The notes beneath the pieces are model-generated. The model searched no databases, was not told the origin of the DNA, and worked only from the letters and a program-made list of their open reading frames with translations. The position numbers and the translations under genes were made by a program. Positions 25,187 to 26,402 of a stretch of 64,000 bases of DNA are shown here, one piece after another. This DNA is from Desulfurobacterium sp. TC5-1 (GTDB lineage: Bacteria > Aquificota > Aquificia > Desulfurobacteriales > Desulfurobacteriaceae): the NCBI RefSeq assembly GCF_000421485.1, contig NZ_ATXC01000001.1, positions 1,109,087 to 1,173,086 of the forward strand, given 5' to 3'. Each line of letters starts with the position of its first letter. The stretch's first letter is position 1.

Positions 25187-25224
25187 AAAGCCCGGCGCGG
25201 GCCGTTTCTACCGCACCGGGCTTT
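25187..25224. terminator. Strong bidirectional terminator between smc and csp
   Basis: AAAGCCCGG (25187-25195) pairs with CCGGGCTTT (25216-25224), extended inside by GCGG/CCGC, around loop GCCGTTTCTA (plus strand). Read on the minus strand it is followed by TTTTTCTATTTT, a good U-tract, so it ends the cold-shock mRNA; on the plus strand it can end smc. Its loop is complementary to the loop of the hairpin upstream of csp. Confidence 0.85.
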
Positions 25225-25239
25225 GATTTCCAGTCTAAA

Positions 25240-25446
25240 TCAGGCTCTTTCTACGTTTATAGCTTTAAGTCCCTTGTCACTTTCGGTAATGTCAAAAACG
25301 ACTCTTTCACCTTCCTCTATTGTTTTAAATCCTTCACCATTAATGCCTGTGTAGTGAACGAATACGTCATGTCCGTCATCTGTTGTGATGAAGCCGTATC
25401 CTTTGCTTGAGTCAAACCACTTTACTGTTCCTGTAAATCTTTCCAT
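25240..25446 (-). CDS. Cold-shock domain protein (CspA family)
   Basis: Single OB-fold nucleic-acid-binding protein; family members bind single-stranded RNA/DNA, melt hairpins and act as antiterminators. 68 residues with both RNP motifs: KGYGFITTD and [25 protein letters not shown] is the canonical start and AINVERA the end. Strong ribosome site GAGAGG lies upstream. It is flanked by two hairpins with complementary loops, described separately, suggesting autogenous control. Confidence 0.95.
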
Positions 25447-25487
25447 GTTAAAAAACCTCTCTAAATTAGTGTTCTTGAAATGAAAAA

Positions 25488-25524
25488 GGGCCTTGAAGGT
25501 AGAAACGGCACACCTTCAAGGCCC
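25488..25524 (-). terminator. Perfect hairpin with U-tract in the csp leader
   Basis: On the minus strand a 13-bp perfect stem (GGGCCTTGAAGGT with ACCTTCAAGGCCC) closes an 11-base loop GTGCCGTTTCT and is followed by TTTTTCATTT, so it has the form of an intrinsic terminator. It may end the upstream Wzz-like gene, and, because a promoter-like pair lies just upstream (25545-25572), may also serve as an attenuator in the cold-shock leader. Confidence 0.8.
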
Positions 25525-25544
25525 GTCCTTCCACTTCACATCTT

Positions 25545-25572
25545 AACTTATGAAATTATTCTTCTTTGTCAA
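25545..25572 (-). promoter_or_regulatory. Candidate csp promoter within the end of the Wzz-like gene
   Basis: On the minus strand a perfect TTGACA (25572-25567) is followed after 16 bases by TAAGTT (25550-25545), a weak -10. Transcription would begin near 25537, placing the 25488-25524 hairpin at the very start of the cold-shock leader. The 41 bases between that hairpin and the csp start are too short for a full promoter. By-eye prediction. Confidence 0.4.
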
Positions 25573-26378: not shown

Positions 26379-26402
26379 AAAGGGGGCTTTAAAGCCCCCT
26401 TT
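26379..26402. terminator. Bidirectional terminator after the porin gene
   Basis: A perfect 24-base palindrome: AAAGGGGGCTTT then AAAGCCCCCTTT. Read on the minus strand it follows the porin stop and continues into TTTTAATAT, an A/U-rich tail as in intrinsic terminators. Confidence 0.85.

Follow-up and report, generated by a model that had tools for sequence, protein, structure and literature searches.

In the cold-shock protein (csp) loci of the family Desulfurobacteriaceae (Aquificota), the gene is flanked by two hairpins, T1 in the leader and T2 beyond the stop codon, the loops of which carry boxes (GCCGUUUC in T1 and GAAACGGC in T2) that are exact 8-nt complements of each other in 23/23 loci. 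Sequence comparison supports the assignment of T1 as a conserved csp leader element with the shape of an intrinsic terminator. On this basis a family-specific attenuator, in which the loop of T1 kisses that of T2 and so tunes the output of csp and of the helicase in the csp2 operon, would in our judgement stand slightly better than an even chance of being correct.

The loci were gathered by a protein search of 41 genomes, which gave 23 in the family, 4 of them of the csp1 type and 19 of a paralogous type, csp2. One of the csp1 genes lies in the window, by which is meant the whole 64,000-nucleotide stretch of Desulfurobacterium sp. TC5-1 DNA analysed here. The genome holding it has a size of 1.65 Mb and also contains a csp2 gene (L126, G000:C1:1222100-1223100). 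A 16S rRNA was not found in its own assembly; the closest named relatives of its csp are from Desulfurobacterium and Thermovibrio. The features of the csp1 locus in the window are the following:

25572-25567, minus strand: -35 element TTGACA, read from the sequence, with TTGAC kept upstream in the family
25550-25545, minus strand: -10 element TAAGTT, a weak match (3/6) to TATAAT
25527..25539, minus strand: 5' strand of a basal extension of T1, GTGAAGTGGAAGG, which pairs with the U-tract region (25487-25476) in predicted folds
25524-25488, minus strand: T1 leader hairpin, 13-bp stem and 11-nt loop, from folding, alignment and covariance model R1
25502..25509, minus strand: T1 loop box GCCGTTTC, the complement of the T2 loop box
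25482..25487, minus strand: U-tract TTTTTC behind T1, T-rich in nearly all relatives
25456..25462, minus strand: ribosome-binding site AGAGAGG, read from the sequence and kept across the family
25240..25446, minus strand: csp1, a cold-shock protein of 68 aa (Pfam PF00313, 93.7 bits)
25187..25224, minus strand: T2 hairpin 3' of the csp1 stop codon, followed by TTTTTC, from a hairpin scan and folding
25201..25208, minus strand: T2 loop box GAAACGGC within the loop UAGAAACGGC, the exact complement of the T1 loop box

The first-pass annotation had marked out TTGACA, TAAGTT, the hairpin and TTTTTC from the letters alone, and all of its coordinates are correct. The -35 element overlaps the final codons of an upstream Wzz-like open reading frame, a spacer of 16 separates it from TAAGTT, and the csp1 RNA would be expected to start near 25537 on the minus strand, ahead of the start ATG at 25446. 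The same arrangement, TTGACA-16-TAA(C/G)TT, is found at both other csp1 loci with upstream sequence. Across the family, TTGAC occurs upstream of the T1 hairpin at 22/22 csp loci with enough sequence, and inside a fixed window of -150 to -45 at 19/21 loci, against an expectation of 2.0. It should be said in this regard that a consensus scan of the window for promoters and terminators reported neither the csp1 promoter nor T1, the former because TAAGTT agrees with TATAAT at so few positions, the latter because its 11-nt loop exceeds the scan maximum of 8. Necessarily, therefore, the support for both elements is that of conservation.

This conservation is extensive. The arms of T1 in the window, GGGCCTTGAAGGT (25524-25512) and ACCTTCAAGGCCC (25500-25488), are complementary over all 13 bp (100%), enclosing the loop GUGCCGUUUCU, and the folding energy of -25.4 kcal/mol compares with -9.8 +/- 2.5 for shuffled sequences; the resulting z of -6.2 argues that T1 is not a chance fold (for the csp1 leader as a whole, z is -4.9). 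Moreover, T1 is present shortly upstream of the start codon at 23/23 csp loci of the family, and an alignment of 21 distinct hairpins has 99.3% of its pair cells paired, with 6 pairs changed on both sides. The covariance model R1, built from this alignment, returned E < 1e-14 in 136 Aquificota genomes only at csp loci of Desulfurobacteriaceae. A basal extension akin to that of the window is seen in the csp1 loci of relatives. The earlier proposal of a csp leader element lying past a promoter is thus borne out, in that both parts are conserved and the stem carries compensatory changes, as is the terminator shape that had been ascribed to it, a 13-bp stem running into TTTTTC. Indeed, promoter, T1 and gene follow one another on the same strand, as in leader attenuators that act through an intrinsic terminator, and the stable hairpin is followed by a U-tract, as in that class, the exception being L025, where the tract is weak. 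At that locus the sequence after T1 is degraded (CTATTTAAC), so that T1 would terminate poorly there, although the loop box is intact. Three features go beyond what had been annotated in the window: the complement of the T1 loop in T2, the operon of csp2 with a helicase gene, and an antiterminator box limited to csp2.

T2 in the window sits just beyond the end of the convergent smc gene (25179, plus strand), and may terminate both csp1 and smc. On the plus strand its loop reads GCCGTTTCTA, and T2 consequently resembles T1; R1 matches T2 in G002 (48 bits) and G003 (39 bits). Between csp1 and csp2 the T2 stems show no sequence relationship, the loop box being identical in the two, and in the inner stem of the csp2 T2 there are 5 compensatory pairs, changed on both sides. 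A covariance model of T2, R2, contained only 3 base pairs, owing to poor alignment of the two paralog types, and was left out of the analysis. Genus g7 has further exact matches to the T2 box, which were considered as additional T2 elements and discarded, those checked (G014:C2, G017:C38) having no T2-type terminator hairpin. At L016 a chance copy of the box lying downstream, inside smc, was not counted as T2, the true T2 of that locus being the hairpin listed above.

In the window the match between the loops is longer than the box, extending over 12 nt (GCCGTTTCTACC and GGTAGAAACGGC, the T1 side at 25509-25498), and this 12-mer has exactly two copies in the genome, one in each hairpin. Near-matches to it number 15 in the genome as compared with 21 for a control, such that there is no enrichment. 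A dispersed genome-wide motif of the uptake-sequence type was accordingly rejected, given these counts and the restriction of strong R1 matches to csp. In csp2 both hairpins typically have loops of 9 bases, made up of one U and then the 8 complementary bases, and the complementarity is not continued into the stem bases that flank them. A match which ends at the loop edges is as expected for a loop-loop contact and not for a long duplex. Random loops of these sizes gave an 8-nt match in 64 of 300,000 trials (~2/10,000), and among 87 csp loci outside the family no predicted loop pair reached 6 nt; the lone 8-base case in the non-family set was a Thermovibrio record, which in fact belongs to the same family. 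Automated loop prediction recovered the 8-nt match at 15 of the 23 family loci, the predicted fold at the others closing part of the loop or opening the stem differently.

The thermodynamics of the boxes can also be estimated. As a free 8-bp duplex they are worth -14.7 kcal/mol at 20 C as against -4.8 at 70 C, which implies that cooling should strengthen the contact considerably. The boxes are invariant across loci, and the pairing is therefore one without covariation support. Their accessibility is partial: in several csp2 T2 hairpins all 8 box bases are free with a probability of ~0.24-0.37 at 37 C and 0.42-0.60 at 65 C, owing to partial local pairing, and at 37 C two csp1 loci have a T1 box that is largely closed.

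The two paralogs differ in what surrounds T1. In csp2 (L126, L020-L034) the gene forms an apparent operon with that of a DEAD-box RNA helicase, T2 lying in the interval and the helicase starting a few tens of bases past T2 in most genomes; in other words, transcription of the helicase from the csp2 promoter would have to pass T2. Upstream of T1 in 19/19 csp2 leaders there is a box, GAAGGCAG, which can pair 8/8 with the 3' arm of T1, the variant arms of L025 and L129 included, and in 17 of the 19 it is followed by CGG, able to pair with CCG of the loop. Its pairing makes GAAGGCAG a candidate antiterminator box of csp2 leaders. In predicted folds T1 is more stable than the antiterminator by ~2-13 kcal/mol, mostly 7-10, so that use of the antiterminator would require some factor that tips the balance towards it. 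A second pairing, of CGGAAAC in the csp2 leader with the 5' arm of T2, was rejected, being good in some species and broken, as judged by eye, in L026, L028, L034 and L126. The antiterminator box is absent from csp1 leaders, that of the window included; there ~13 nt would separate the expected 5' end from T1, the stem of which continues through the U-tract.

The attenuator proposed here would operate as follows. RNA would begin at the conserved promoter and T1 would fold, such that many transcripts would stop there unless the polymerase reads through to csp. Within one csp mRNA the T1 loop would then kiss the T2 loop; alternatively, the partners could be a csp 3' end and the nascent or terminated leader of another transcript. 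Such kissing would be weak at the growth temperature and firm upon cooling, and it could lock T1 as a terminator against an antiterminator of the csp2 type, hold the two mRNA ends to each other, or both. In csp2 it would amount to feedback from accumulated csp message, favouring the terminator since the antiterminator needs the same bases of T1. In csp1 it could mainly join the ends of the message. What we infer is termination at T1 in the cell, pairing of the loops, the direction in which any effect would run and whatever part a Csp protein may play. More tentatively, and as a possibility that we consider less likely than not, the system may be a self-referential RNA thermostat, with the 3' terminator of the finished transcript serving as a ligand for its own leader and so controlling termination there. 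The leader hairpin would for its part act on the terminator that precedes the helicase gene, and the pairing would strengthen on cooling.

The same hairpins could instead form an attenuator that the Csp protein controls without any pairing of loops, the protein binding or melting T1 (and T2) to allow read-through and the loops being its sites on the RNA, a reading that we consider rather unlikely. Precedent for it exists in E. coli, in which CspA, CspC and CspE lower termination at the metY-rpsO intrinsic terminators (Bae et al. 2000, as cited in PMC9765468). The positions of the hairpins are also in keeping with it, T1 standing ahead of csp in all loci and T2 ahead of the helicase gene in csp2. 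A protein site, however, would not demand loops that are exactly complementary, and the T2 loop is purine-rich where the T1 loop is pyrimidine-rich; antitermination by Csp in E. coli is not known to need such conserved loops. Relief of T1 by a Csp protein is nevertheless plausible by analogy with the E. coli case, and would be compatible with kissing of the loops.

It is more doubtful that pairing of T1 with T2 serves only to stabilise the finished csp message, its ends being joined or capped and T1 acting as a protective 5' hairpin with little termination. The csp1 T1, so close to the expected 5' end and with a stem running through the U-tract, has the look of such a hairpin, the retention of the loop in L025 despite a poor U-tract agrees with it, and pairing of the 5' and 3' UTRs is known to protect the hbs mRNA of B. 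subtilis (PMC7821165). Against this, most family members have a good U-tract after T1, and the antiterminator box of csp2 is something that a purely protective hairpin does not need.

We give little credence to the idea that the boxes are a protein site in double-stranded DNA, inverted at the two ends of csp, with no pairing of RNA loops. They are indeed the same word on opposite strands, and as invariant as a protein site, but both copies fall exactly in hairpin loops at every locus, T1 lies downstream of the promoter and not over it, R1 has no other strong sites, and the near-matches of the 12-mer are not enriched. Hardly credible is the view that T1 is a mere terminator of the upstream Wzz-like gene, T2 the csp terminator and the remainder coincidence: the Wzz-like frame does share its strand with T1 and ends 31 bases ahead of it, at 25556, but the upstream genes differ between loci and are divergent at several, with promoter, T1 and loop kept in all, and T1 therefore belongs to csp and, as the whole story, this view was rejected. 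In the window T1 may also serve the Wzz-like gene as a terminator. At the other end of that frame, a strong symmetrical hairpin, AAAGGGGGCTTTAAAGCCCCCTTT, lies at 26379-26402, between the start of the Wzz-like frame (26347) and the end of the next (26422), and is likely a terminator.

The kissing attenuator as proposed appears to be a property of this family. Two other Aquificota families with csp have leader hairpins of other kinds, with no common loop, and loop complementarity between the 5' and 3' ends as a general csp trait was found in none of the other phyla compared. In one of those families, of the same class (f3, L035-L038), the csp leaders have a conserved long stem, GAAGATGTTTAAAG ... 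CTTTAAAC(T)CTTC, enclosing inner hairpins that vary. In the other, likewise of the same class (f4, L039-L045), the leaders have in common a hairpin around AAGGGAGGGCGCCTA.CCTT that lacks a U-tract, together with a strong upstream hairpin, which makes for a third, unrelated type of leader.

Several known systems bear partial resemblance to the arrangement. With the E. coli antitermination, as far as it is described in PMC9765468, it would have in common that Csp proteins and intrinsic terminators gate downstream cold-response genes; in that account the target is not a csp leader and conserved complementary loops do not figure, and here the effect of Csp is only putative. The csp leader of the window has no Rfam match above the gathering cut-off. 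The cspA thermoregulator RF01766, also a structured csp mRNA leader, scores 60.1, 24.5 and 22.4 bits in relatives against a cut-off of 78, in matches that span coding sequence; its fold includes the coding region and controls translation, whereas here there is a short hairpin with a U-tract. The S. aureus cspA mRNA, too, has a long hairpin close to its 5' end (PMC3386247), although that hairpin is a 32-bp RNase III substrate, in contrast to one of 13 bp with a U-tract and a loop box matched by a 3' hairpin.

Closer in kind are mRNAs whose two ends pair, as is proposed here. In S. aureus icaR an anti-RBS motif pairs with the ribosome-binding site, and in B. subtilis hbs a 14-nt pairing of 5' and 3' regions blocks an RNase Y site (PMC7821165). 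All 23 family loci have complementary stretches in the 5' and 3' UTRs of one mRNA and in this respect fall in the same class; they differ from icaR and hbs (PMC7821165) in that it is two hairpin loops which match, one of them that of an attenuator. In the RnaG/icsA system of Shigella, loop-loop contact with the nascent leader decides whether a terminator forms (PMC5394118), as in our proposal; in Shigella the loop is contacted by an antisense RNA transcribed from the opposite strand, whereas here the 3' terminator hairpin of the gene itself, on the same strand, would take that role. In the open-access literature no csp gene bracketed by two complementary terminators was found, and the putative RNA switch around csp may be previously undescribed, although a description may exist elsewhere.

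Most of what is known of cold-shock regulation comes from enteric and Gram-positive mesophiles, and little of it concerns the sensing of a temperature drop by thermophiles. More generally, a comparison of hairpin loops across both ends of a gene can reveal control elements which searches for single hairpins miss. For the Desulfurobacteriaceae, a conserved attenuator whose loop is complementary to that of the terminator at the 3' end of the same gene would be a compact RNA mechanism linking csp and the DEAD-box helicase.
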